Shown: positions 18,204 through 32,374 of the stretch, piece after piece
Layout of the letters: every line of letters starts with the position of its first letter
Numbering within the stretch: position 1 is the stretch's first letter
NCBI RefSeq assembly: GCF_014126825.1
Contig: NZ_CP059900.1
Span: forward strand, 682,001-746,000
Source of the DNA: Tomitella gaofuii
GTDB lineage: Bacteria > Actinomycetota > Actinomycetes > Mycobacteriales > Mycobacteriaceae
Direction: 5' to 3'
DNA: 64,000 nucleotides
Program-made: the position numbers and the translations under genes
Notes under the pieces: model-generated
Database searches by the model: none
What the model saw: only the letters and a program-made list of their open reading frames with translations
Told to the model about the DNA's origin: nothing

Positions 18204-18668
18204 GTGTCCACACCACCGCACTCCCGGGCGGCGCTGGCAGCCCTGGTCGCCGTGGGCGGCGTCGTCGGCACCTTCGCCCGCCACGGCCTGGGCGTGCTCT
18301 TCCCCGATGCCCCGGGGCACTGGCCGGTGACGACGTTCGCCGTCAACATCACGGGGGCGTTCCTGCTGGGGATGCTGCTGGAGATGCTCACCCGGCACAA
18401 GCGTGCCGGCTCCGCCGGCCGCGCATCTACCCTCGCGCGACTGGGCGTGGGGACCGGAATGCTCGGCGCTTTCACCACCTACAGCACGCTCGCAGTGGAT
18501 ACCGACCTGCTGGTGCACCGCGGTCACACGGTCGCCGCCGCGTCGTACGCGCTCGCGACGGTCCTGGTCGGCGCCGTCACCTGTGCCCTCGGCATCGCGG
18601 TGGGGGCACGCATGCGGTGGCCCGCAGCCGTCGCGCCCGCCGAGCCCCCGGAAGGCGACCGGACATGA
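18204..18668 (+). CDS. crcB: Fluoride channel subunit CrcB/Fluc (first copy)
   Basis: This 154-residue membrane protein exports fluoride. It has four predicted membrane segments and the family motifs GTFARHGLG, TTFAVNITGAFLLG and the pore motif GMLGAFTTYSTL. Start is GTG 18204, directly after the ribosome-binding site controlled by the riboswitch. The stop overlaps the start of a second crcB (ATGA). Paired genes usually form an antiparallel heterodimer. Confidence 0.95.
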   Translation: MSTPPHSRAALAALVAVGGVVGTFARHGLGVLFPDAPGHWPVTTFAVNITGAFLLGMLLEMLTRHKRAGSAGRASTLARLGVGTGMLGAFTTYSTLAVDTDLLVHRGHTVAAASYALATVLVGAVTCALGIAVGARMRWPAAVAPAEPPEGDRT

Positions 18669-19033
18669 CGACGCTCTGGGTCGCGCTCGCCGGCGGCGGG
18701 GGAGCCACGGCGCGATTCCTCCTGGACGGCGCCATCACGTCCCGCCGCACGCTGCGGTTCCCGTGGGCGACGTTCGCGATCAACGTACTCGGTTCGCTGC
18801 TGCTCGGATATCTCACAGGGCTCGTCCTGTTCCAGGATGCTCCGACGGGTCTCACCGTCATCGCGGGCGCAGGATTCTGCGGCGGGTTCACCACGTTCAG
18901 CACCGCGAGCGTGGAAACGGTCCGCCTGCTGGAGGCGCGCCGCTACACGGCGGGGCTGGCGAACGTCGCCGGGACGCTCGCCGTCACGGCGGGCGTAGCG
19001 GCGTTCGGCCTGTGGCTCGCCTCGGTGTCGTAG
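18665..19033 (+). CDS. crcB: Fluoride channel subunit CrcB/Fluc (second copy)
   Basis: This 122-residue second subunit shares the motifs GGGGATARFLLDG, WATFAINVLGSLLLG and GFCGGFTTFSTAS with the first and has four hydrophobic segments. Its ATG lies inside the stop of the first copy, so the two are translated together in a likely 1:1 ratio under the same fluoride riboswitch. Length is normal for the family. Confidence 0.95.
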   Translation: MTTLWVALAGGGGATARFLLDGAITSRRTLRFPWATFAINVLGSLLLGYLTGLVLFQDAPTGLTVIAGAGFCGGFTTFSTASVETVRLLEARRYTAGLANVAGTLAVTAGVAAFGLWLASVS

Positions 19034-20202: not shown

Positions 20203-20349
20203 TCGGCACCGCCCCGCGCCGCGTGCCCCGGACGGACATCACGCCGCGGGATCCGCGGTCAGCCCATACGATCTACTTGCCGATGGATTATGGGCGGTTT
20301 CCAGCCGGGCGCACTATGCGACGGGACCAGGGCCGCCGTGGGAGTGGTG

Positions 20350-22509
20350 ATGGACAACGACGACGCAGGCGGGCCCCGCCCCGACGACCATGCACGCCCC
20401 GACGACCGCGCACATCGCCGGACCGAGCGGATGCGGGAGCCGGCCAAACGGCTGATCAAGCAGGTATCGGATCGCAGCCTGGTGCATCCGGCGCTCATCC
20501 CGGGGATCGGCGTGGAGCGCACGGGACGGGTGTTCAACACGAGCCCGCCGGTGTTCGTCGTCTCGGGACTGCTCATCGCGGCGGTCATCGTGTGGGCGTT
20601 CGTGGCGCCGGACAACATCAAGTCCGTCGGTGACGAGTCCCTTCAGTGGGTGACCACCAATTTCGGCTGGATGTACGGCGTGCTGGCCCTGGTGATCGCC
20701 GCGTTCATGCTCGTGCTCGGCTACAGTCGCACCGGCGGCGTGCGCCTGGGCGCGGACGACGAGGAGCCCGAGTTCACCACCGTGTCGTGGGTGGCGATGC
20801 TCTTCTCCGCCGGCATGGGCATCGGGCTGCTGTTCTACGGCCCGTACGAGCCGCTCACCTACTTCATGGACCCGCCGCACGGGTTCGAGGTGTCCCCCGA
20901 GACCGTCGACGCGGCGCAGACGGCGCTGGCGCAGACGATGTTGCACTGGGGCCCCATCGCGTGGGCGTTCTACGCGCTCGTCGGCGGCGCCATCGCCTAC
21001 AGCGCCTACCGTCGCGGCCGTCCCCCGCTGATCTCGGCGATCTTCGAACCGATCTTCGGCACCCGCACGCACGGGCCGCTCGGCGCCGTCATCGACATCT
21101 TCGCGATCATCGTGACCCTGTTCGGCACCGCGATCTCGCTGGGCATCGGAGCGATGCAGATCGCGCGCGGCACCGAGGTCGTCACCGGTGCGGGCCACCT
21201 GGGCAACACGTTCATCATCGGCACGATGGCGGTGCTCACCGCGGCGTTCATCGTCTCTGCGGTGTCGGGGATCAAGCGCGGCATCCGGATGCTGTCCAAC
21301 ATCAACATGGTCATCGCGGGGCTGCTCGCGGTGTTCGTCTTCATCGCGGGGCCCACGCTGTTCCTGCTCAACCTCATGCCGGCCGGGGTCGCGTCGTTCT
21401 TCAACGAGTTGGGCACCATGATCATCCGCAACGGCAACGAGGGTGGCGGCACTGCGGAGTTCATGTCCGCGTGGACCACCTACTACTGGGCGTGGTGGGT
21501 GTCGTGGACGCCGTTCGTCGGCATGTTCATCGCCAAGATCTCCCGCGGCCGGACGCTGCGTGAGTTCGTCACCGTCGTGATACTCGTGCCCGCGGGGGTC
21601 TGCTTCATGTGGTTCGCCGTGTTCGGCGGGACCTCGATGTGGCAGAAGATGAACGGCAAAAGCGTCGACGCCGGGGGTTCGCCGGAGGCGATGCTGTTCG
21701 GCATGCTCGACAACCTGCCGTTCGGCGCCGTCACCGCGGTGATCGCGATGATCTCCATCGTCGTGTTCTTCGTGACCTCCGCGGATTCGGCGTCGATCGT
21801 CATGGGGTCGATGAGTCAGCGTGGCAAGCCGGAGCCGTCCACCTGGGTGACGATCTGCTGGGGCGTCCTGCTGGGGCTCACCGCGGCGTCGCTGCTGCTG
21901 GCCGGCGGCTCCGATGCGTTGGGCGGGCTGCAATCGATCATGGTCGTGTCGTCGCTGCCGTTCGCGTTCGTCATCATGGGCATGATGGTGTCCTGGGGCA
22001 AGGACCTGCGCACCGACCCGTACATGCTGCGCCACAAGTACGCGCGTGCCGCGATCGCACAGGGGGTGCGCCTGGGCATCGCCAACCACGGCGACGACTT
22101 CGTCTTCGGCTCCAGCGCGGTGTCGTCCGACGCGGGCGCCGGAGCCTGGCTCGACAGCCGCGACCCGGACCTCGTCGAGTGGTACATCAAGGCGGCGGAG
22201 GAAGTGGGCGTGGTGGACGCGGACGACGTGCGCCGCACGCTCGACCCGGGCCGCATCCAGCCGAAGGGGCCGGACCGCCCGGACCTCACCGCGTCGGGCG
22301 ACCTGGCGTTGGCGACCGGCCGCAAGCTCGAGCGGCTGGCACGCAAACGCGAGGCCCTCGAGCGGGAACTGCTGGACAACCGGATGCGCGAACAGCTCGT
22401 ACGCCGGCAGGAGTCGGTTCGCGCGCGCGGGCGCGACGACGGAACCGGCGGGGCCGGAGACGACTCCCGCACGTCCGCAGACGAGGGGCCGCGGGACGAC
22501 GAGCAGTAG
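20350..22509 (+). CDS. BCCT-family betaine/carnitine/choline transporter
   Basis: This 719-residue secondary carrier has twelve membrane segments and the BCCT signatures GMGIGLLFYGPYEPLTYF and WWVSWTPFVGMFIAKISRGR, including the Trp-rich substrate box. An N-terminal acidic tail of about 70 residues and a long charged C-terminal tail (about 165 residues) resemble osmosensing members such as BetP. Substrates of the family are glycine betaine, choline and carnitine. Its 3' end faces cdhB across 23 bases, so uptake of L-carnitine or of the betaine made by the cdh genes fits. GTG codons just before ATG 20350 are alternative starts. Confidence 0.92.
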   Translation: MDNDDAGGPRPDDHARPDDRAHRRTERMREPAKRLIKQVSDRSLVHPALIPGIGVERTGRVFNTSPPVFVVSGLLIAAVIVWAFVAPDNIKSVGDESLQWVTTNFGWMYGVLALVIAAFMLVLGYSRTGGVRLGADDEEPEFTTVSWVAMLFSAGMGIGLLFYGPYEPLTYFMDPPHGFEVSPETVDAAQTALAQTMLHWGPIAWAFYALVGGAIAYSAYRRGRPPLISAIFEPIFGTRTHGPLGAVIDIFAIIVTLFGTAISLGIGAMQIARGTEVVTGAGHLGNTFIIGTMAVLTAAFIVSAVSGIKRGIRMLSNINMVIAGLLAVFVFIAGPTLFLLNLMPAGVASFFNELGTMIIRNGNEGGGTAEFMSAWTTYYWAWWVSWTPFVGMFIAKISRGRTLREFVTVVILVPAGVCFMWFAVFGGTSMWQKMNGKSVDAGGSPEAMLFGMLDNLPFGAVTAVIAMISIVVFFVTSADSASIVMGSMSQRGKPEPSTWVTICWGVLLGLTAASLLLAGGSDALGGLQSIMVVSSLPFAFVIMGMMVSWGKDLRTDPYMLRHKYARAAIAQGVRLGIANHGDDFVFGSSAVSSDAGAGAWLDSRDPDLVEWYIKAAEEVGVVDADDVRRTLDPGRIQPKGPDRPDLTASGDLALATGRKLERLARKREALERELLDNRMREQLVRRQESVRARGRDDGTGGAGDDSRTSADEGPRDDEQ

Positions 22510-22532
22510 CAACGTCGCCCCGCGGGTGCCCC

Positions 22533-23000
22533 TCAGACGCCGACGGCGCGGCCGCTCCACGCCGGCGCGGGCGTCTGCGCGCCGCGCGCGGCGGTGAGCA
22601 CCTCGTCCGGCAACGGCACCGCACCGCCCGCGTTCTGGTCCACGTGCACGCCCAGGATCTCCTCGGTGGACACGAGGGCCGGCTCCGCGCCGGCGAGCGC
22701 GGCGGACATGGAGTGGGCCAGGTGCAGCTTCTTGCCGGCGACCCCGACGACCTCGGTGTGCACCGTCAGCGGTGCGCCCAGCGGAACCTCCTGCAAGTAC
22801 CGGATGTGCGCCTCGACGGTGTAGAGCGAGCAGCCCGTGCGCTCGCGGTACCGCGGCCCCAGGCCGAGCACGTCCATCGCCTCGTCGGTGGCGTACCCGA
22901 ACACGAGAACGTAGAAGGCTTCGGACATGTGGCCGTTGTAGTCGATCCACTCCGGGCGGACCGCCGTCCGGTAGGTCGACAGTGCCGGGCGCGCGCTCAC
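22533..23000 (-). CDS. cdhB: Betainyl-CoA thioesterase CdhB
   Basis: This 155-residue hotdog-fold thioesterase has the 4-hydroxybenzoyl-CoA thioesterase-type motif PEWIDYNGHMSEAFYVLVF, followed by SLYTVEAHIRYLQEV. Proteins with this exact motif pattern hydrolyse betainyl-CoA to glycine betaine at the end of carnitine breakdown. The GTG at 23000 overlaps the cdhA stop (GTGA). It is the last gene of the operon tetR-cdhC-cdhA-cdhB. In isolation it would be called only an acyl-CoA thioesterase; the neighbours fix the role. Confidence 0.88.
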   Translation of the reverse strand: MSARPALSTYRTAVRPEWIDYNGHMSEAFYVLVFGYATDEAMDVLGLGPRYRERTGCSLYTVEAHIRYLQEVPLGAPLTVHTEVVGVAGKKLHLAHSMSAALAGAEPALVSTEEILGVHVDQNAGGAVPLPDEVLTAARGAQTPAPAWSGRAVGV

Positions 23001-23980
23001 TCCCGGCCGCCGGGGTAGTCGCGGCGGATGCCGGCGATGGCCTGGCGCACGGCGATCACCGAGGCGTCGCGCGCGCGGATCAGCTCGTCGATGGTGCGGC
23101 CCTTCGCCGCCTCGTCGACACTGTCGACCACCGCGTCGCGGAGCTCCTGGGTCAGCTCGGGGGCCTCGAGCCGGGTCCAGGGCGACTTGAGCGACGGGCC
23201 GAAGTGGTCCAGGTTGTGCGCCATGCCGCCCTGGCCGCCCGCCAGGTGGAAGGTGAGCATGGGGCCCAGCAGCGGCCACCGCAGGCCGGGGCCGTCGGTG
23301 ATCGAGCGGTCGATCTGCTCGGCGGTCGCCTCGCCGTTGTCGATCATGTGCAGGGCCTCGCGCCAGAGCGCCTCCTGCAGGCGGTTGGCGATGAAACCGG
23401 GCAGCTCGCGGTCCATGCGGATCACCGACTTGCCGATGAGTGTGTACCACTCGGCGGCCCGGTCGACCGCGGCCGCGGCGGTGTGCTTGCCGCCGACCAC
23501 CTCCACGAGCGGGATCAGGTAGGGCGGGTTGAACGGATGCCCGACGACGAGCCGCGCCGCGCCGTCCGGCGCCTCCGCGACGGCCGTCTGCGCCATCTCC
23601 GTCATGCTGTAGCCGGAGGTGGACGACCCGATCACGGCGTCCGCCGGGGCCGCGGCGGCGATGTCGGCGAGCAGCCGCTGCTTCATCTCGAGGTTCTCCG
23701 GCGCAGACTCCTGGACGAACCCGACACCGTCGAGCGCCTCGGCCAGGTCGGTGTGCACGGTCCAGGCGTCCTTGTCTGCGCCGTCGGCGAGACCGAGCGC
23801 GGTGAGGGCCGGCCAGGCGTTGTCGATGAGTCGCGCGAGCCGTTCGCCGGCCTCCGGCGCGGGATCCCACACGCGGACGCGCAGCCCGCGGGCGAGGAAG
23901 TAGGCGGCCCAGCCGCCGCCGATGACTCCGGCGCCCACGCAGGCGACGGTGTCGATGGTCTTCATGTCACGGAGTTCCAT
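22997..23980 (-). CDS. cdhA: L-carnitine 3-dehydrogenase CdhA
   Basis: CdhA oxidises L-carnitine to 3-dehydrocarnitine with NAD. The 327-residue protein is of the 3-hydroxyacyl-CoA dehydrogenase family without a hydratase domain. It has the Rossmann motif VGAGVIGGGWAAYF, IGSSTSGYSM with the catalytic Ser region, and GHPFNPPYLIPLVEVVGG. The stretch GFIANRLQEALWREALHMI and the later WPLLGPMLTFHLAGG are characteristic of carnitine dehydrogenases. I chose ATG 23980; an ATG 15 bases downstream is also possible. It lies 44 bases after cdhC. Confidence 0.9.
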   Translation of the reverse strand: MELRDMKTIDTVACVGAGVIGGGWAAYFLARGLRVRVWDPAPEAGERLARLIDNAWPALTALGLADGADKDAWTVHTDLAEALDGVGFVQESAPENLEMKQRLLADIAAAAPADAVIGSSTSGYSMTEMAQTAVAEAPDGAARLVVGHPFNPPYLIPLVEVVGGKHTAAAAVDRAAEWYTLIGKSVIRMDRELPGFIANRLQEALWREALHMIDNGEATAEQIDRSITDGPGLRWPLLGPMLTFHLAGGQGGMAHNLDHFGPSLKSPWTRLEAPELTQELRDAVVDSVDEAAKGRTIDELIRARDASVIAVRQAIAGIRRDYPGGRE

Positions 23981-24024
23981 GATCGCTGCTTTCAGTTCGG
24001 GGCGGAACGCGGTGCGGTGAGGGC

Positions 24025-24909
24025 TCAGTGCGGGCGGAGGCCGAGGAGCTCGCGGGTCTCGTCCGGGGTGGCGACCCGGGCGCCGAGAGAGTCGATGATC
24101 TCGCCGGCCCGCTGCACGAGCTGGGCATTGGTGGCCTTGACCCCCTTGGACAGGTACAGGTTGTCCTCCAGGCCCACGCGCACGTGGCCGCCGGCCAGCA
24201 CGGAGCGCGCGACCCATTCGAACTGGTTGCGTGAGATCGCGAACGCGGTGAACTCGGCCGTCTTCGGCAGCATCGCCACCTCGGCCTCCAGCAGGGCGCC
24301 GTCGGCGGGCGCGCCGTAGGGGATGCCCTGGCAGATCTGGTAGAACGGTGGGTCGTCGAGCAGGCCCTCCTGGTACATCACGTTGGCGAACCAGACGTTG
24401 CCGGTGTCGAAGCACTCCAGCTCCGGCTTGACGCCCAGCTCGCGGATGCGGGCCGCGCCCTCGCGCATCATGTCCGGGGTGGAGATGTAGGTGGAGCTGC
24501 CCTCGCCGAAGTTGAGCGTGCCGCAGTCGAGCGTGCAGATCTCCGGCCGCAGCGCCTCGACGTGCTCGAGGCGGGTGGCCTGGCTGACCAGGTCGGTGCC
24601 CTCCACGTGCTGCATCGGATTCTGCGGGTCGATCACGTAGTCGCCGCCCATGCCCGCGGTCATGTTGATCACCGGGTCCACATCCGATGCGGCGATGAGG
24701 CGCTGCACCTCGGCGTAGTACTCGGTCTTGCGGGAGCCGAGGGTGGTCTGCGGATCGCGCACGTGGATGTGGACGATGGAGGCGCCGGCGCGCGCCGCGT
24801 CGATGGCGGAGTCGGCGATCTGCTGCGGGGTGACGGGAACGTGCTCGGACCGGCCGGCGGTGTCGCCGGCCCCGGTGACGGCGCAGGTGAGGATGACGTG
24901 ACGGTTCAT
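24025..24909 (-). CDS. cdhC: BKACE enzyme CdhC, 3-dehydrocarnitine:acetyl-CoA cleavage
   Basis: This 294-residue protein is a beta-keto acid cleavage enzyme (DUF849). It transfers the trimethylglycyl part of 3-dehydrocarnitine to acetyl-CoA, giving betainyl-CoA and acetoacetate. Zinc ligands are visible in IVHIHVRDP (two His) and GLEDNLYL (Glu). The stretches ITC-like LTCAVTGAGDT, EICTLDCGTLNFG and GIPYGAPAD follow Pseudomonas CdhC closely. The ATG at 24909 overlaps the regulator stop by four bases, so regulator and enzyme are cotranscribed. Confidence 0.93.
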   Translation of the reverse strand: MNRHVILTCAVTGAGDTAGRSEHVPVTPQQIADSAIDAARAGASIVHIHVRDPQTTLGSRKTEYYAEVQRLIAASDVDPVINMTAGMGGDYVIDPQNPMQHVEGTDLVSQATRLEHVEALRPEICTLDCGTLNFGEGSSTYISTPDMMREGAARIRELGVKPELECFDTGNVWFANVMYQEGLLDDPPFYQICQGIPYGAPADGALLEAEVAMLPKTAEFTAFAISRNQFEWVARSVLAGGHVRVGLEDNLYLSKGVKATNAQLVQRAGEIIDSLGARVATPDETRELLGLRPH

Positions 24910-25802
24910 GGAACGGTCCTAACCGGTAGTGCGTGGGCGATGAGATTGCGGTCTATGAAGTTGTCCACCTGCTCGGCCATCTCCTGCGGGCCGAGCAGTC
25001 CGGTGAGCACGCGGATGCCGAGCCCGTCGATGTAGGCGGTGAGGACGTCGGCGGTCCGGTCGGGCGGGGCGTCCGTGAACGCGCCGGTGCGGGTGCCCTC
25101 GGCGATGACGCCGCGGACGGTCTCCCACCAGCGGCGGTAGCTGGGGCCGTGCTCGAAGCGGTCGCCGTCGACGGCGACGGCCGCCCACGTCTGCAGCCAG
25201 ATCGACCACTCGGCCCTGCGCAGGCGATCCGCCGGCATTTGCAGGCGCACAAGGGTCTTGAGCTGTGACGCCGGGTCGTCGACGTCGGTGAGGCGGGCGC
25301 TCTGGCGGTCGAACGCCAGCTTCACCGAGTAGCGCAGCACCTCGGCGAATACGTCGCGCTTGGAGGGGAAGTAGTAGTGCACGGACGCGCTGGAGGCGCC
25401 GGCGGCGTCGGCGATGTCACTGATGCGGACGCCGTCGTAGCCGTGCTCGGCGAACAGCCACCACGCCCGCTCGACGAGCGTGCGTCTGCGCAGCGCCTGC
25501 TCCTCGCTCTCCGGGTGACGGGAGGGGAGGGTCTCGGGTGGTGGTGTGGCGGACACGGATTCGACGTTCGAACCCGAGTCTTCGCCCCCCGTCAGCAGCC
25601 ACTGGACGGTGACGCCCGTGACGGTCGCCAACGCCAGCAGCTCGTCCGTGGAGAAGCGGCGCGTGCCGCCCAGCGACTTCGAAAGCTTGGTCTCGTCCAG
25701 GCCGATGCGACCCGCGACATCGCGCTGCGCCATCGCGGACCCCCGGATGGCGGTGCGTGCACGGCCGCCGACGGCTTCCGCCATCCCCTCCGACTTGCTC
25801 AC
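24906..25802 (-). CDS. XRE-TetR fusion regulator of the carnitine operon
   Basis: This 298-residue protein carries two DNA-binding domains. Residues about 20-75 look like a Cro/C1-type helix-turn-helix (MAQRDVAGRIGLDETKLSKS, then FSTDELLALATVTGVTVQWL). After a 30-residue Ser/Pro linker comes a complete TetR domain (ERAWWLFAEHGYDGVRISDI, ASSASVHYYFPSKRDVFAEV) with a ligand-binding C-terminus. Pseudomonas CdhR is of a different, AraC-like type. It leads the cdhCAB operon and is divergent from the ABC cluster, so control of both is likely. The GTG at 25802 is chosen; a TTG at 25838 is less likely. Confidence 0.85.
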   Translation of the reverse strand: MSKSEGMAEAVGGRARTAIRGSAMAQRDVAGRIGLDETKLSKSLGGTRRFSTDELLALATVTGVTVQWLLTGGEDSGSNVESVSATPPPETLPSRHPESEEQALRRRTLVERAWWLFAEHGYDGVRISDIADAAGASSASVHYYFPSKRDVFAEVLRYSVKLAFDRQSARLTDVDDPASQLKTLVRLQMPADRLRRAEWSIWLQTWAAVAVDGDRFEHGPSYRRWWETVRGVIAEGTRTGAFTDAPPDRTADVLTAYIDGLGIRVLTGLLGPQEMAEQVDNFIDRNLIAHALPVRTVP

Positions 25803-25821
25803 ACCTGAAGCATAGTCAGCA

Positions 25822-25840
25822 ACTTGCTTCCATCGCAAGT
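25822..25840. promoter_or_regulatory. Candidate operator palindrome upstream of the XRE-TetR gene
   Basis: ACTTGC (25822-25827) and GCAAGT (25835-25840) are perfect inverted repeats separated by seven bases. The 19-base element lies 20 bases before the chosen start of the regulator and in the gap shared with the divergent ABC operon. This is where a TetR-type protein usually binds to control itself and its neighbours. Binding is inference. Confidence 0.45.
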
Positions 25841-25880
25841 ATCTGATGATGTGTTAGAAATTGCATCGCGAATCGAAAGT

Positions 25881-25914
25881 CCTCCGGGGCGCCACGCCCG
25901 TGGCGCTCCGGAGG
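25881..25914. repeat. Fifteen-base-pair hairpin in the divergent control region
   Basis: The arms 25881-25895 and 25900-25914 pair over 15 bases with one G-T wobble and a four-base loop. The outer part is CCTCCGG/CCGGAGG and the inner part GCGCCAC/GTGGCGC. No T tract follows on either strand. It sits in the likely 5' leader of the ABC operon, 93 bases before the binding-protein ATG. It may be an RNA structure controlling that operon, a second operator, or a U-less terminator of stray transcription. Confidence 0.7.
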
Positions 25915-26006
25915 GCGGCTATTGCATGTCCCACTGTCGACTCGAGAACGGATCTGATGCGTAGCGCACGACGGAACCGGACCGGCACGTACCTGAAGGC
26001 GACAAA

Positions 26007-27599
26007 ATGAACAGTGAACAACGATCGGCCCCCGCCGGCGGGGCGGCCTTGAGCCGCCGCGGATTCCTCGGTGCGGGCCTCGGAATGGGGACCGCCCTCA
26101 TCCTCGCCGCATGCGGGAGCTCCGCCACCGCGGGCTCCTTCGATATGAGCGGCACCCCGACGCCCGGCGGCAGGCTCCGCGTGGGACTCACCGGCGGCGG
26201 TGCGACGGACACGCTCGACGCGCACTTGTCCGTGAACACCACGGACATCGCACGCGTCGTCAACCTGTACGACACGCTTCTCGAGCTCGACCACGAATAC
26301 GGCCTGCGGCCCGGACTGGCGACGAAGGCGGAGGTGACGCCCGACGGGCGCGTGTGGACCGTCCACCTGCGCGACGACGTGGTGTTCCACGACGGCAGGC
26401 CGATGACGGGCCGCGACGTCAAGGCGACGTTCCTGCGGATCACCGACCCGGACGACCCGAAGAACGGGGCCGTGGACCTGCAGCCTCTGCGGGAGATCGA
26501 GGTCGTCGGCGAGCACCTCGTGCGCTTCCACCTCGACACGCCGGTGTCGTACTTCGACCGGCTGCTCGCCGCGTACACCTCCGGGATCGTGCCCGTCGAT
26601 TACGACCCGCAACGTCCCGTGGGCACCGGGCCGTTCCGGTACAAGTCGTTCACTGCGAGCCAGCAGAGCACGTTCGCGCGCAACGAGCACTACTGGCACG
26701 ACGACCAGCCCTACCTGGACGAGCTGACGATCCTCAACTTCAACGACGACGACGCCCTGATCAACGCGCTGTTGTCGAACCAGGTGGACGCCATCGGCCA
26801 GATCCCGCCGGCGCTCGTCGAGGTGCTCGAATCCGACCCGCGCATCGACATCCTCAACTCGGAGACCGGGTCGTGGACGCCGTTCACCATGCGGGTGGAT
26901 CAGGCTCCGTTCGACGACAACCGGGTGCGCGAGGCATTCCGGCTGGCCGTCGACAGGGAGCAGATGGTCCGCCAGGTCTACAGCGGGCACGGGCGGGTCG
27001 GCAACGACATGTACGCGCCGTTCGACAGCGCGTACTCGAAGAACCTGCCCCAGCGCACCCAGGACCTCGACAAGGCCCGGCGTCTGCTGGCCGAGGCCGG
27101 GCACCCCGACGGGATCACCGTCGAACTGGTCACCTCCAACATCCAAGCGGGCGCGGTCGAGGCGGCGCAGGTGTTCGCGCAGCAGGCCAAGGGCGCCGGA
27201 ATCACCGTCGACATCCGGCGCGTGGAGCCGACGACCTTCTTCGGTGACGATTACCTCAAGTGGACCTTCGCGCAGGACTTCTACTACACGCGCGACTTCC
27301 TTCCGCAGGCGATGACCTGCAGCCTGCCGAAGTCGGCCTTCAACGAGACCCACATGGACAACCCCGAGCTGACGCGCCTGGTCAAGCAGGCCACCGCGAC
27401 GGTCGATGAGGGTCCGCGCACCGAGCTGATCCGGCGGGCCCAGAAGATCCTCTACGACGAGGGCGGGTACATCATCTGGGGCTTCGCCAACCAGATCGAC
27501 GCCTACCAGCGGTATGTGGGCGGACTGGTGCCCGACCGCACCGGGCTCGCGTTGTCCGGCTTCCGGTTCCGTCAAGTGTGGATGAGGGAGGCGCAGTGA
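26007..27599 (+). CDS. ABC transporter substrate-binding lipoprotein (peptide/nickel family)
   Basis: This 530-residue protein is a family 5 solute-binding protein (DppA/OppA type). The N-terminus has a Tat-like twin arginine (SRRGFLGAGLGMG) and a lipobox (LILAAC, Cys36), so it is an exported lipoprotein on the outer face of the membrane. Core motifs include TPDGRVWTVHLRDDVVFHDG, VGTGPFRYKSF and FRLAVDREQM. The family binds peptides but also many small solutes. Location beside carnitine genes suggests acylcarnitines or related amines, which is inference. The ATG at 26007 has GAAGGC upstream. The stop overlaps the first permease. Confidence 0.92.
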   Translation: MNSEQRSAPAGGAALSRRGFLGAGLGMGTALILAACGSSATAGSFDMSGTPTPGGRLRVGLTGGGATDTLDAHLSVNTTDIARVVNLYDTLLELDHEYGLRPGLATKAEVTPDGRVWTVHLRDDVVFHDGRPMTGRDVKATFLRITDPDDPKNGAVDLQPLREIEVVGEHLVRFHLDTPVSYFDRLLAAYTSGIVPVDYDPQRPVGTGPFRYKSFTASQQSTFARNEHYWHDDQPYLDELTILNFNDDDALINALLSNQVDAIGQIPPALVEVLESDPRIDILNSETGSWTPFTMRVDQAPFDDNRVREAFRLAVDREQMVRQVYSGHGRVGNDMYAPFDSAYSKNLPQRTQDLDKARRLLAEAGHPDGITVELVTSNIQAGAVEAAQVFAQQAKGAGITVDIRRVEPTTFFGDDYLKWTFAQDFYYTRDFLPQAMTCSLPKSAFNETHMDNPELTRLVKQATATVDEGPRTELIRRAQKILYDEGGYIIWGFANQIDAYQRYVGGLVPDRTGLALSGFRFRQVWMREAQ

Positions 27600-28555
27600 T
27601 GGCACGTTTCATCGCCAAGCGCCTCGCGATCAGCGTCGTCATCCTGTTCCTGGTCAGCGTGCTCGTGTTCATCGCGACGCTGCTCCTGCCCGGCGACCCG
27701 GCGCAGGCGATCCTGGGGCAGCAGGCGACGCCGGAACGGCTGGCGGCGCTGCGCGAACAGCTGAACCTCAACGACCCTGTGGTGCAACGGTATCTGGAGT
27801 GGCTCGGCGGCATCTTCACCGGCGACTTCGGCACGTCCACGGCCACGGGCGCGTCGGTCGGCGCCTACCTGGGGCCGAAGATCGTCAACTCGCTGGTGCT
27901 CATGCTGATCGCCGCGGTCGTCAGCATCCCCGTCGGCATCCTCATCGGAAGCTACAGCGCGATCCGCCGCGGCAAGGCCGCCGACAACGCCACCACGTAC
28001 GCGACGCTCGTCGTGGCCGCGCTGCCGGACTTCGTCATCGGCATCGTCCTGATCGCCGTGTTGTCGACCAACGTGTTCGACGTGCTGCCGGCGGTGACGA
28101 TGAACCCTCCGGGCACCCATGTGTGGGACTTCCCGCCGCAGCTGGTGATGCCGATCCTCACGCTCGTGATCGTGGTGCTGCCGTACATCGTCCGGATGAT
28201 GCGGGCGACGATGGTCGAAGCCCTCGACGGCGGCTTCGTCGAGATGGCCCGGCTCAAGGGCGTTCCGGAAAGGCAGGTCATCACCCGGCACGCCATGCCG
28301 CATGCGCTCGGCCCGGTCGCCCAGGTGATCGCCTTCCAGCTGGCGTGGCTCGCCGGCGGCATCGTGGTCGTCGAGTATCTCTTCCGCTACCCGGGGATCG
28401 GCGCCGCGCTGGTGGACGCCGTGCACAACCGCGACATCCAGGTGGTGCAGACCATCGCGCTGCTCATCGCCGCGGTGTACATCGTGGTGAACCTGCTGGC
28501 CGACGTCGTCGGCATCGTGACCAACCCGAAACTGCGGACGGAGCCGGCGAAATGA
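27599..28555 (+). CDS. ABC transporter permease (DppB type)
   Basis: This 318-residue inner-membrane permease has six membrane segments and the cytoplasmic EAA loop (FVEMARLKGVPERQVITRHA) that contacts the ATPase. The N-terminal segment ending LLPGDPAQAILGQQATPERL is typical of DppB/OppB proteins. Its ATG shares one base with the stop of the binding protein. It pairs with the next gene to form the channel. Confidence 0.93.
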   Translation: MARFIAKRLAISVVILFLVSVLVFIATLLLPGDPAQAILGQQATPERLAALREQLNLNDPVVQRYLEWLGGIFTGDFGTSTATGASVGAYLGPKIVNSLVLMLIAAVVSIPVGILIGSYSAIRRGKAADNATTYATLVVAALPDFVIGIVLIAVLSTNVFDVLPAVTMNPPGTHVWDFPPQLVMPILTLVIVVLPYIVRMMRATMVEALDGGFVEMARLKGVPERQVITRHAMPHALGPVAQVIAFQLAWLAGGIVVVEYLFRYPGIGAALVDAVHNRDIQVVQTIALLIAAVYIVVNLLADVVGIVTNPKLRTEPAK

Positions 28556-29442
28556 GTGCACAACCGGACGGCGTCATCAGCCAGGAGGCGCAGGCGTCCG
28601 CGCCCGCGAGCCTGTGGCGGCGGTTCATCGCGCAGCGGCAGGCGAAGATCGGCGTCGTGATCACCGGCATCGTCGTGGCGGTCGCCGTCTTCGGGCCGCT
28701 GCTGCTGCCGTGGGCCACGGGGTACACGAGCACGGAGTTCGCGGCCAAACCGTTCCAGGGCGACGGGGTGTTCGGCACGGACAACCTGGGCCGCGACGTG
28801 CTGAGCAGGTTCCTCGACGGCGGACTGCGCCTGCTCGTCTACGCCGCGCTCGCCACCGTCCTGGGCCTGGCGCTCGGCACGGTGCTCGGCATGGTCGCCG
28901 CCTACACCCGCGGCTGGGTGGACAGCGTCATCATGCGCGGCAACGACATCCTGCTGGCCCTGCCGCAGCTCGTGTTCGCGTTGCTGGCGATCACCGTGCT
29001 GGGGCCCCAGGGGTGGGTCCTCGTCGTCGTCATCGGCATCACCCACGCGCCGAGCGTCGCCCGCGTCGCCCGGTCCGCGACTCTGTCGGTGATCACTGAG
29101 GACTACATCACCGCCGCGGAGATGTACAACGTTCCGCGGTGGCGGATCCTCGCGCGCGAGGTGCTGCCGAACATCACCGGCCCGCTCATGGTGGAACTGG
29201 GCCTGCGGATGACCTATTCGATCGCCTACATCGCCTCGCTGTCGTTCCTGGGGCTCGGGCTCCAGCCGCCCGCCGCCGGCTGGGGCTTGATGATCAACGA
29301 GAACCGCATCGCACTGGCGGTGCAGCCGTGGGGCGTGCTGCTGCCGATCATCGCCATCGCCCTGCTGACCGTCGGCACGAACCTCGTCACGGACGCATTC
29401 GCGCGCGCCACGGCGAACCTGCACGTGGAGGACCAACAGTGA
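28552..29442 (+). CDS. ABC transporter permease (DppC type)
   Basis: This 296-residue second permease has an N-terminal cytoplasmic helix, the DppC-type segment FGTDNLGRDVLSRFLDGGLR, and the EAA loop ITAAEMYNVPRWRILAREVL. About six membrane segments are present. It overlaps the previous gene by four bases (ATGA) and the next by four (GTGA), which indicates strict co-translation of the transporter. Confidence 0.93.
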   Translation: MSAQPDGVISQEAQASAPASLWRRFIAQRQAKIGVVITGIVVAVAVFGPLLLPWATGYTSTEFAAKPFQGDGVFGTDNLGRDVLSRFLDGGLRLLVYAALATVLGLALGTVLGMVAAYTRGWVDSVIMRGNDILLALPQLVFALLAITVLGPQGWVLVVVIGITHAPSVARVARSATLSVITEDYITAAEMYNVPRWRILAREVLPNITGPLMVELGLRMTYSIAYIASLSFLGLGLQPPAAGWGLMINENRIALAVQPWGVLLPIIAIALLTVGTNLVTDAFARATANLHVEDQQ

Positions 29443-31133
29443 ACAACCAGACGACCACCGCGGGGCCTGTCGCCCTGCGCGCCCGGGACCTGAGGGTGGC
29501 GGCCACCGCCGGCGGCAAGGAAGTGCTGCACGGCGTCTCCTTCGACCTGCACGCCGGCGCGATGCTGGCACTGGTGGGCCAGTCCGGATCCGGCAAGACG
29601 ACGGCGGGTCTGGCCTGCCTCGGCCACTTCCGGCGCGGCCTGCGGCACACCGGCGGCGGCGTGGACCTGTACCAGGACGGGGAGCCCCTCGACGTGCTGG
29701 ACCTGCCCGAACCGGAGCGCCGCAAGCTCCGCGGCGGCCGCATCTCCTACGTGCCCCAGGATCCCGCGCTCTCGCTGAACCCGGCCATGCGGGTGGGCGA
29801 CCAGATCCTCGAGGTGCTGCGGGTCCACGGCTTCGGCGGGTCCGACGCCGAGCGCAAGGCCCGCGTGGCCGAGGTGCTGCCGGAGGTGGGGCTGCCCGGG
29901 GACCCCGGGTATCAGCGCCGGTACCCGCACCAACTGTCCGGGGGCCAGCAGCAGCGCATCGGCATCGCCATGGCGTTCGCGTGCAGGCCGTCGGTGATGG
30001 TGCTGGACGAGCCGACGACGGGACTCGACGTCACCACCCAGGCGCTCGTGCTCGAGACCATCCACGAGCTGACCCGCCGTCACGACGTGGCGGGCCTGTA
30101 CATCACCCACGACCTGGCGGTGGTCGCCGAAGTGGCCGACGCGGTGGCCGTCATGCTCACCGGCGACATCGTCGAACGCGGCGGGTGCTCGGAAGTGCTG
30201 TACCGCCCCCGGCACGAGTACACGCGGCGGCTGCTGCGGGCGGTGCCGGACCTGGAGGGGGAGCGCCGGATCGGGCACACCGAGGCCATCACCGGGGAAC
30301 ACCTCGCCGCGCCGGCGCCGGTCCGGGGGCGCTCCGCGCGCGTCATGACCGGACCGGATGCGGCGGAGACTCCGGCGGCGTCGGAGGCCCTGCTGCGGAC
30401 CAGGGATCTGCGGCTCTCCTACGGCAAGGCCCGGATTCTCGACGGCATCGACATCGCGCTGGGCGCCGGCGAATCCATGATGCTGCTGGGCGAATCCGGA
30501 TCGGGCAAGACGACCCTTTCCCGCTGCATCGCCGGCCTCAACAGCCGGTACCGCGGCGACGTCGTGCTCTCCGGCGGCGCTCTCGCCCGCGGCACCCGGC
30601 AGCGCACCGCGGAGGAGCGGCGCAGCATCCAGTACGTGTTCCAGAGCCCGTTCTCGTCGCTGAACCCCCGGCGCACCATCGGCGAGTCCATCGAGGTGCC
30701 GTTGCGGATGACGGGCGGCACCACCGGGCGGCAACGCCGGGAGATGGTCCAGGAGGCGCTCGACCAGGTGGAGCTGGGCCGCAGCTTCATCGACCGCCGC
30801 CCGGGCGATCTCAGCGGCGGCGAACGCCAGCGGGCCGCCATCGCCCGGGCCCTCGTCAACGCCCCGAGCGTGCTGGTGTGCGACGAGGTGACGTCCGCGC
30901 TGGACGTGTCCGTGCAGGCGGCGATCATCGACCTGCTGCGGACGTTGCAGTGGGAGACCGGCATGGCCATGCTGTTCGTCACGCACAACATCGCGCTGGC
31001 GCGCCACATCGCCCAGCGCCTGGCCGTGCTGCAGAGCGGCAGGATCGTCGAGAACGGCCCCGTGGACGAGGTGCTGGACGATCCGCAGCACCACTACACC
31101 CGCGAACTCATCGCCCACATCCCGCGCATGTGA
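29439..31133 (+). CDS. ABC transporter ATPase, fused DppD-DppF
   Basis: This 564-residue protein fuses two ATPase domains that are separate in E. coli Dpp. The first has Walker A GQSGSGKTT, signature LSGGQQQR and Walker B VMVLDEPTTGLD. The second has GESGSGKTT, LSGGERQR and VLVCDEVTSALD. The H-loop His is present in both (YITHDLA and FVTHNIA). The linker (residues about 270-310) includes the C-terminal extension typical of peptide importers. GTG 29439 overlaps the permease stop. Confidence 0.94.
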   Translation: MNNQTTTAGPVALRARDLRVAATAGGKEVLHGVSFDLHAGAMLALVGQSGSGKTTAGLACLGHFRRGLRHTGGGVDLYQDGEPLDVLDLPEPERRKLRGGRISYVPQDPALSLNPAMRVGDQILEVLRVHGFGGSDAERKARVAEVLPEVGLPGDPGYQRRYPHQLSGGQQQRIGIAMAFACRPSVMVLDEPTTGLDVTTQALVLETIHELTRRHDVAGLYITHDLAVVAEVADAVAVMLTGDIVERGGCSEVLYRPRHEYTRRLLRAVPDLEGERRIGHTEAITGEHLAAPAPVRGRSARVMTGPDAAETPAASEALLRTRDLRLSYGKARILDGIDIALGAGESMMLLGESGSGKTTLSRCIAGLNSRYRGDVVLSGGALARGTRQRTAEERRSIQYVFQSPFSSLNPRRTIGESIEVPLRMTGGTTGRQRREMVQEALDQVELGRSFIDRRPGDLSGGERQRAAIARALVNAPSVLVCDEVTSALDVSVQAAIIDLLRTLQWETGMAMLFVTHNIALARHIAQRLAVLQSGRIVENGPVDEVLDDPQHHYTRELIAHIPRM

Positions 31134-31158
31134 GCGGAAGCCCCGAGGAGAGGCAACG

Positions 31159-32226
31159 ATGACGCACGACACTTCCACGCACCCTGCTGCGACCCCCCGC
31201 GGCATCGACGACGTGCCCGGCCACGTGCGCGAGCGCCTCACCCCGCAGATGCGCCGGGTGGTGATCCACCAGCTGGCGCGGGCGGCCGCGGTGGCGGGCG
31301 GAGGCGACGTCCCCGCGGACCCGGTCGCGGCCATGCGCGCCGAATACCGCGATGAGCGGAGGTTCTGGAACGAAGGCGGGCCGAGGATGGCGGCGACCGA
31401 CGAGCTGCGGATCCGCGCTGCGGGCACGGACGTGCCGATCCGCATCCACCGCCCGACCTCCGCCGCGGAAACACCGGCGGTCGTGTACTTCCACGGCGGC
31501 GGGTTCACCGTGGGGGATCTCGACACGCACGACCGCATCATGCGGGTTCTCGCCGACAGGAGCGGCGCGGCCGTGGTCGGCGTGGAATACTCGCTGTCGC
31601 CGGAGGTCCGGTTCCCCCAGGCGCTGCACGAGTGCGCGGGCGTGGTCGCCGAGCTGGCGGTGCACGGCCGACGGCACGGGATCGACCCGACCAGGCTGGC
31701 GGTGGCGGGCGATTCCGCGGGGGCGATGCTGTCGATGGCGACGGCGCTGCTGCTGCGTGACCGCCCTGCGGCCCTGCCCGGCATCGACCTGCACGCGGCG
31801 GCCGCCGCCAGCGGGGCGCTGCGGGCGATGCTGCTCTACTACGGCGGGCACGGATTGCGCGACTCCGCCACGAGCAGGCAGTACGGCGGCTTCTGGGACG
31901 GCATGGCACCGCAGGATCTGCAGGGCTTCCAGAGCACCGTCTTCGACGACCCCGCCGACCGCGAAGGGCCCCTCGTCGACCACATCTCGGCGGATCTGGA
32001 CACGCCGCTGCCGCCCGCCTACGTCGTGGGCGCGGAGCTCGACCCGCTCGCCGACGATGCGCGGGCGCTCGCTGCGGCGCTCCGGCGGGGAGGCCAGGAC
32101 GTGCGGTTCCGCATGGTGCCCGGCGTGCTGCACTCGTTCCTGCACTTCGGCCGGATGCTCGACGAGGCGAACGAGGAACTCGCCTGCGGCGCGGAGTTCG
32201 TGCGGGCGCGCTTCCTGGCCGCCTGA
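31159..32226 (+). CDS. HSL-family alpha/beta hydrolase (esterase)
   Basis: This 355-residue esterase has the hormone-sensitive-lipase motifs: the oxyanion box YFHGGGF, the nucleophile in VAGDSAGAM, and Asp/His in ELDPLADDA and GVLHSFLHF. The family cleaves short-chain carboxyl esters. No signal peptide is visible, so it should act in the cytoplasm on imported substrate. It ends the ABC operon, 25 bases after the ATPase, with GAGGAGAGG upstream of ATG 31159. Beside cdhCAB, an O-acylcarnitine hydrolase role like that of Pseudomonas HocS is an attractive inference, not shown by the sequence. Confidence 0.88.
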   Translation: MTHDTSTHPAATPRGIDDVPGHVRERLTPQMRRVVIHQLARAAAVAGGGDVPADPVAAMRAEYRDERRFWNEGGPRMAATDELRIRAAGTDVPIRIHRPTSAAETPAVVYFHGGGFTVGDLDTHDRIMRVLADRSGAAVVGVEYSLSPEVRFPQALHECAGVVAELAVHGRRHGIDPTRLAVAGDSAGAMLSMATALLLRDRPAALPGIDLHAAAAASGALRAMLLYYGGHGLRDSATSRQYGGFWDGMAPQDLQGFQSTVFDDPADREGPLVDHISADLDTPLPPAYVVGAELDPLADDARALAAALRRGGQDVRFRMVPGVLHSFLHFGRMLDEANEELACGAEFVRARFLAA

Positions 32227-32290: not shown

Positions 32291-32300
32291 CTTCATTGCG

Positions 32301-32374
<74 letters not shown>

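Follow-up and report, generated by a model that had tools for sequence, protein, structure and literature searches.

Acylcarnitines are abundant in animal tissues. In this report, we examine a 64-kb stretch of the Tomitella gaofuii genome (contig NZ_CP059900.1, positions 682,001 to 746,000; "the window" hereafter), in which a gene set for the conversion of L-carnitine to glycine betaine stands back to back with the genes of an ATP-binding cassette (ABC) importer and an esterase. We conclude that this is probably a locus for the utilisation of carnitine esters, in which an importer of O-acylcarnitines, or of carnitine together with its esters, would be coupled to deacylation and carnitine catabolism. 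Two lines of evidence carry this conclusion. The importer genes keep company with carnitine-degrading genes across many genera, and the slot behind the transporter genes is occupied by one or another of several unrelated acyl-removing enzymes.

The carnitine locus of the window

The first-pass annotation had reported cdhC, cdhA and cdhB, a converging carrier gene of the BCCT family, a regulator between two operons, a set of ABC genes and an esterase of the hormone-sensitive-lipase family. Pfam and NCBIfam searches recovered every one of these genes, and their start and stop codons were checked on the window sequence. The features are as follows.

20290..22509, + strand: BCCT-family carrier (betaine/carnitine/choline); PF02028, E 1e-166
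22533..23000, - strand: cdhB, betainyl-CoA thioesterase (4HBT_2); PF13279, E 9e-27; predicted start, a GTG overlapping the cdhA stop
22997..23980, - strand: cdhA, L-carnitine 3-dehydrogenase; PF02737/PF00725 (3HCDH_N/3HCDH); predicted start, ATG at 23980 or 23965
24025..24909, - strand: cdhC, beta-keto acid (dehydrocarnitine) cleavage enzyme, BKACE family; PF05853, E 1e-91
24906..25784, - strand: XRE-TetR-like regulator, BetI-type at its C-terminus, encoded at the head of the cdhCAB operon; matches TetR_N and TetR_C_6 above cut-off; predicted start
25824..25838, no strand: proposed operator between the divergent operons, a 15-bp palindrome (TTGC-N7-GCAA) and the single such site in the window
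25881..25914, no strand: second inverted repeat, GC-rich, between the regulator and binding-protein genes; 16-nt arms, 94% complementary, 2 nt apart
26007..27599, + strand: family 5 solute-binding lipoprotein (SBP); SBP_bac_5, PF00496, E 6e-84
27599..28555, + strand: permease 1 (DppB/OppB type); PF00528, PF19300; predicted start
28552..29442, + strand: permease 2 (DppC/OppC type); PF00528, PF12911; predicted start
29439..31133, + strand: fused DppD-DppF-type ATPase; two PF00005 (ABC_tran) stretches, oligo_HPY
31159..32226, + strand: hormone-sensitive-lipase-family esterase, proposed O-acylcarnitine hydrolase; Abhydrolase_3, PF07859, E 1e-49; no evident signal peptide

The regulator-cdhCAB genes and the SBP-permeases-ATPase-esterase genes diverge from a single intergenic region, and the BCCT gene converges on cdhB. 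Within each divergent set, neighbouring genes either overlap or are separated by no more than about 45 bp, which makes two divergent operons likely.

The adjacent BKACE, carnitine 3-dehydrogenase and betainyl-CoA thioesterase genes make up a complete cdhCAB set, with the dehydrogenase and thioesterase scoring below their equivalog cut-offs. The best NCBIfam model for the cdhA product is L-carnitine dehydrogenase (NF005471, 330 bits, cut-off 414), and the cdhB product aligns with the C-terminal part of the carnitine 3-dehydrogenase model NF005716 (103 bits, against a cut-off of 592 that applies to the whole fusion). No NCBIfam model specific to CdhC matched the cdhC product. The chemistry of the three reactions is known from these enzyme families. 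CdhA would oxidise carnitine to dehydrocarnitine, CdhC would convert dehydrocarnitine and acetyl-CoA to betainyl-CoA and acetoacetate, and CdhB would release glycine betaine from betainyl-CoA. The BCCT carrier is a likely entry route for free carnitine or glycine betaine, separate from that of the esters. Five BCCT genes are present in the window genome (a single 4.35-Mb contig), and others occur in the cdh loci L056, L060, L180 and L185.

We propose that carnitine esters are bound outside the cell by the SBP and imported by the two permeases together with the fused ATPase, and that the esterase then cleaves them to L-carnitine and an acyl acid. The N-terminus of the SBP has, as judged by eye, a twin-arginine, lipobox-like signal. 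The esterase has the features that define the hormone-sensitive-lipase family: an HGGG oxyanion motif (at 112), a GDSAG nucleophile motif (Ser186), and the Asp and His of the catalytic triad, with the Asp295 and His325 columns invariant in nine of nine aligned relatives. Its nearest NCBIfam model is an acetyl esterase (341 bits, below the cut-off of 389), and acetyl esterases are likewise its nearest solved structures. Cleavage is probably cytoplasmic, because the hydrolases inspected have no evident signal peptide.

The tie to carnitine catabolism

Within the order to which T. gaofuii belongs, close relatives of the SBP are present in seven of 200 genomes (the window genome and six others, at 52-60% identity), with the next matches at 39% or lower. 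CdhC (E up to 1e-60) was found in eight of the 200 genomes, among them all seven with the SBP. The CdhC orthologs of the order are 60-66% identical and adjoin cdhA in six of seven cases. At the loci of the six SBP relatives, the regulator, cdhC and cdhA always lie beside the ABC genes, and cdhB does so in five. The genes at L036-L040 are all co-directional; at L041, which has no cdhB match, the two sets diverge as they do in the window. The eighth CdhC genome (G104, locus L185) has no close SBP, and there a BCCT gene (28% identical to that of the window) lies beside regulator-cdhCAB genes with the palindrome present. Neither cdhC nor cdhA was found in 14 regions around weaker SBP matches (L042-L055).

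Of the relatives found, Tomitella cavernea is the nearest: its SBP is 95% identical, and the same arrangement is present at its locus (L056). For a wider sample, contigs were scanned with an SBP alignment, and the best 80 of the resulting 568 loci were combined with L038-L041 to give 84 loci; L036 and L037 were left out of the counts as duplicates of L070 and L072, and the L036 protein stands for L070. Genes at these loci were found by tblastn and a codon-usage gene caller, which replaced a clustering of open reading frames that was noisy from long false starts. At 40 of the 84 loci, cdhC adjoins the ABC genes; in 38 of the 40, the sequence extends far enough past the ATPase gene for what follows it to be judged. 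The arrangement described in the first-pass annotation is thus real and not a product of chance.

Co-occurrence points the same way. The Kocuria family is represented by 149 genomes, 28 of them with the SBP; of these 28, 16 have CdhC, eight have a member of the acyltransferase family PF00755 and four have neither; no genome among the 149 has both CdhC and PF00755. In the 16, CdhC is encoded on the same contig and strand as the SBP, 1.5-2.0 kb away, versus a CdhC in only two of the 121 genomes without the SBP (Fisher's test, p = 3e-12, kinship ignored). Further, when 43 genomes without an adjacent cdhC were searched, CdhC was found elsewhere in 16: 12 of 15 Brevibacterium, two Nocardiopsis, one Streptomonospora and one member of the Solirubrobacterales. 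A lone cdhB match precedes the SBP gene at the Brevibacterium ravenspurgense locus L079; its relative L087 has cdhC-cdhA-cdhB, and no CdhC was detected in the L079 genome at the threshold used.

A regulator and a putative operator are also held in common. Most cdh-linked loci have a homolog of the regulator next to the same set of genes. The window protein is of the TetR_N-TetR_C_6 type, and an XRE-type helix-turn-helix (HTH_31) is matched below threshold in the same protein (23.3 versus 27 bits). Its start is probably ATG 25784 and not TTG 25838, a choice preferred because the conserved palindrome covers 25824-25838. Of 74 regions upstream of regulator homologs, 50 contain the TTGC-N7-GCAA palindrome (48 of 72 when the two Tomitella are set aside), against a background of nine sites in 1.47 Mb outside those regions, or 0.0017 expected per 280 bases. 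Its common form is TTGCGAT-N-ATCGCAA, and it is present in 48 of the 64 regulator regions that adjoin ABC genes. At L075 and L092, which begin with the ABC genes, the palindrome precedes the SBP gene; at L100, one exact and one near-exact copy precede the two regulator genes, one before each. We propose, from genomic context, that the XRE-TetR-like protein binds this palindrome and would govern both divergent operons through it, in response to an inducer. The narrower pattern TTGC-N5-TCGCAA has one match in the 4.35-Mb window genome, versus four for a reversed control pattern. Six other genomes carry it two to ten times each, not always above control, and we therefore propose a single-site regulator for the window genome only.

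Taken together, conserved adjacency, co-occurrence and a shared operator strongly support the assignment of the ABC operon to carnitine catabolism. An unrelated importer, for peptides, nickel or another solute, that lies beside the cdh genes by accident is hardly credible. The proteins do belong to the peptide/nickel (Dpp/Opp/Nik) superfamily, and the fused ATPase passes two nickel cut-offs. However, the linkage is kept over many genera and differing gene orders, together with the conserved palindrome, and the SBP and permeases score far under the listed NCBIfam equivalog cut-offs for nickel and peptide systems.

Acyl-removing genes and the nature of the cargo

The first-pass annotation suggested a comparison of gene neighbourhoods, and this comparison bears directly on the cargo. 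A gene was counted as following the ATPase gene when its tblastn match started between 30 bases before and 1100 bases past the ATPase stop. By this measure, a hydrolase-family gene follows in 34 of the 38 judged cdh-linked loci: 29 are of the PF00144 type, four of the PF07859 type found in the window, and one of the Abhydrolase_1 type. Thirty-one of these came from an automated count, and L069, L072 and L092 were added on the basis of the ATPase stop and a PF00144-type match directly after it. Pfam was run on seven hydrolases (L036, L040, L041, L057, L058, L116 and, from outside the cdh-linked set, Kocuria L085); the others were assigned by tblastn. Though PF00144 is named for beta-lactamase, among solved structures the L036 protein is closest to carboxylesterases and esterase A. 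The Abhydrolase_1 protein of L041 has SxSGGG in place of GxSxG at its likely nucleophile, and a gene 50-62% identical to it lies about 5-6 kb past the ABC genes in L107, L108 and L117.

The 44 loci without cdhC are more varied: six have a PF00144-type gene in this position, five a carnitine acyltransferase gene, three a short-chain dehydrogenase gene and 25 none of these, with five that could not be judged. The same procedure was applied, as a control, to 14 family 5 ABC loci that are not orthologous. Of the 12 that could be judged, none has a gene of these families after the ATPase gene; inspection of their gene lists by eye agrees, except at L054, where the gene caller did not resolve the ATPase region. 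A tree of 66 SBP sequences made by a quick method implies that the four acyl-removing types have replaced one another at least five times, and the minimum stays at five when L088 is removed. Members of unrelated ester-hydrolase families, or a carnitine O-acyltransferase, thus appear to have converged on the same operon slot, which supports the proposal that the cargo is an ester.

The acyltransferase variant occurs in Corynebacterium. There, a PF00755 gene (E about 1e-90) comes next after that of the ATPase at L122, L123 and L129; at Corynebacterium L124 and Enteractinococcus L126, a PF00755 gene starts about 0.9 kb past the ATPase gene. Of 151 Corynebacterium genomes, nine have the SBP and 24 have PF00755. 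All nine SBP genomes are among the latter, with the PF00755 gene 3.7-4.7 kb beyond the SBP gene on the same contig and strand, versus 15 of 142 genomes without the SBP (Fisher's test, p = 1.5e-8, kinship ignored). Four of the nine (G223, G224, G225 and G227) were known beforehand, and the interval between the two genes was read in those four only. CdhC was found in none of the four Corynebacterium genomes tested. In the Kocuria family, once genomes with CdhC are removed, PF00755 is present in eight of 12 genomes with the SBP versus 12 of 119 without (Fisher's test, p = 2.5e-5, kinship again ignored). Among 34 genomes checked through their loci, 14 have PF00755 (eight Kocuria, Auritidibacter, four Corynebacterium and Enteractinococcus); it was found in none of 14 control genomes, and a search of the window genome detected none. 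At the Enteractinococcus helveticum locus L193, there are two tandem units of permease/ATPase and carnitine acyltransferase genes.

The identity of this acyltransferase has a bearing on another possible cargo, namely an ester of a different quaternary ammonium compound, such as a choline ester, with the cdh genes linked only through a shared end product. The BetI-like C-terminal domain of the regulator and the end product of the pathway, glycine betaine, are in keeping with that idea. We nonetheless regard it as improbable, as the conserved neighbours belong to carnitine-pathway families (CdhA and CdhC). Moreover, in a structure comparison made on the L129 protein only, the closest match is carnitine acetyltransferase (2e-38), followed by choline acetyltransferase (1e-29). 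Among 14 PF00755 gene models, one gene of which appears twice, GRT is present in all 14 and the DRH motif in nine; these motifs may mark carnitine rather than choline use. The Corynebacterium L129 enzyme is nearer to a carnitine than to a choline O-acyltransferase.

The hydrolase could also act as a second thioesterase for betainyl-CoA, or in some other step of the cdh pathway, independent of imported esters. Two loci with a hydrolase, L041 and L092, do lack a detected CdhB. But a CdhB match is present in the other 32 of the 34 cdh-linked loci with a hydrolase, the hydrolase gene follows the transporter genes and not the cdh genes, and in Corynebacterium, with CdhC in none of four genomes tested, an acyltransferase gene takes its place. 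We judge this explanation very unlikely.

Several findings weigh against a dedicated acylcarnitine importer. An attached hydrolase gene was not found in four of the 38 judged cdh-linked loci (L087, L100, L110 and L113), although L100 has a PF07859-type gene, 64% identical, upstream on the opposite strand. Among the 39 judged loci without cdhC, 25 have none of the searched acyl-removing genes directly after the ATPase gene, including 13 of 14 judged Brevibacterium loci. The first-pass annotation held that ABC-esterase operons free of cdh genes would speak against acylcarnitine uptake, and five Kocuria loci (L085, L091, L094, L095 and L128) are such operons to the letter, with a PF00144 gene after the ABC genes and no CdhC in the genome. 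All three of these five genomes that were tested have a carnitine acyltransferase; carnitine would perhaps have another fate there, in osmoprotection. In Corynebacterium, the SBP is absent from 15 of the 24 genomes that have PF00755. PF00755 is only weakly tied to the SBP in the Kocuria family as a whole (eight of 28 versus 12 of 121, p 0.03), and in the regions read (L186-L191) it lies apart from the ABC genes. The exact palindrome occurs in just two of ten regulator-cdh regions without ABC genes (L180 and L185), with one arm altered at one base in L181, L182 and L183, and it was not found upstream of the regulator in Corynebacterium or L107-type loci. The fused ATPase exceeds the NCBIfam cut-offs of the nickel proteins NikD and NikE, with a score that sums two domains. 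Finally, the genes of distant SBP relatives have acyl-CoA ligase and acyl-CoA dehydrogenase genes as neighbours, identified by NCBIfam at L107 and L120.

Some of these points would suit a high-affinity importer of free L-carnitine and perhaps gamma-butyrobetaine; the linked hydrolases would then act on carnitine esters, taken up through that route or a different one, or would serve otherwise. The three cdh-linked loci L087, L110 and L113 without a hydrolase would fit such an importer, as would the Brevibacterium loci without cdhC, for which CdhC is so often encoded elsewhere in the genome and an attached gene of the searched families so rarely found. The ligase and dehydrogenase neighbours suggest that gamma-butyrobetaine may be a cargo of the distant SBP branch. 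Short-chain dehydrogenase genes are present in L107, L108 and L117, and with the ligase and dehydrogenase genes they perhaps form a gamma-butyrobetaine route; a similar ligase/dehydrogenase-like pair was seen by eye beside cdhC-cdhA in the gammaproteobacterial loci L202 and L205. On the other side, the recruitment of three hydrolase types and a carnitine O-acyltransferase to the position after the ATPase gene, with the repeated changes seen on the SBP tree, is hard to explain unless esters are important cargo, and in Brevibacterium L100, L104, L106 and L112 a PF07859-type gene is nearby on the other strand. We thus consider an importer of free carnitine alone a possible but rather unlikely explanation. 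Given the loci without an attached acyl-removing gene, both with and without cdhC, the importer may also carry free carnitine.

Acylcarnitine uptake, as proposed in the first-pass annotation, has therefore been upheld in part. Its tie to carnitine catabolism is strong and an ester cargo fits the convergence of acyl-removing genes, but the Kocuria loci join ABC and hydrolase genes in genomes where no CdhC was found.

A proposed importer family and known systems

We suggest, with confidence that leans only slightly in its favour, that the window locus represents a widespread actinobacterial family of Dpp-type ABC importers dedicated to O-acylcarnitines, in which the acyl-removing enzyme is exchangeable. 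Three unrelated esterases would feed cdhCAB, or, in Corynebacterium, an acyltransferase would pass the acyl group to CoA; the XRE-TetR-like regulator and its TTGCGAT-N-ATCGCAA operator would accompany them in most cdh-linked genomes. If this is true, a subfamily of a very large transporter family, now annotated as peptide or nickel importers, would gain a cargo. Further, esterases named only by their fold would acquire a likely function, and bacterial carnitine acyltransferases a physiological setting. The Corynebacterium variant would be a bacterial counterpart of the mitochondrial acylcarnitine shuttle: its importer is paired with a PF00755 enzyme nearest to the eukaryotic carnitine acetyltransferase, but bacterial ABC import replaces the mitochondrial carrier, and the pairing is a property of Corynebacterium and Enteractinococcus loci, not of the window genome. 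The regulator-operator pair is directly testable.

Among the open-licence papers listed in a literature search, no dedicated bacterial acylcarnitine importer appeared. The window importer resembles the Dpp, Opp, Gsi and Nik systems in its SBP_bac_5 protein, its two BPD_transp_1 permeases and its DppD/DppF-type ATPase with oligo_HPY; it differs from them in its carnitine gene context and in the cut-offs that its SBP and permeases, unlike its ATPase, fail to reach.

Acylcarnitine hydrolases beside carnitine genes are already known. The closest parallel found is the caiX-cdhCAB-hocS operon of Pseudomonas aeruginosa, in which the cdh genes are accompanied by a gene for part of an importer and one for a hydrolase of short-chain acylcarnitines (PMC5806209), much as the cdh genes here are joined to an importer and an esterase. 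There, CaiX works with the CbcWV ABC transporter and the regulator, CdhR, is of the AraC type, whereas in the window a family 5 SBP is encoded together with its permeases and a fused ATPase, and the regulator is XRE-TetR-like and has a palindrome of its own. In family terms, the window SBP is a PF00496 protein and not a CaiX-type binding protein, and its regulator, with TetR_N-TetR_C_6 domains and a weak XRE-type match, is not of the CdhR type. In Acinetobacter baumannii, an acylcarnitine hydrolase gene lies directly beside that of a carnitine BCCT transporter (PMC6562126); the degradation route there leads to malic acid, and the portion of that account seen makes no mention of a family 5 ABC importer. 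A review names Corynebacterium among the organisms with acyl-L-carnitine esterases (PMC2131755). What appears to be new is the importer of Dpp type, the pairing of regulator and operator, and the replacement of an esterase by an acyltransferase. Among 185 genomes of the class of Castellaniella, CdhC was found in seven, and the seven regions show no gene labelled as one of the searched hydrolases.

Two further features flank the locus. A tRNA-Pro(cgg) gene lies just downstream of the esterase gene (32300-32374, - strand), and the open reading frame that spans it is probably a read-through artefact. On the other side, tandem genes of the CrcB family (fluoride channel type) are present at 18204-18668 and 18617-19033, both on the + strand.

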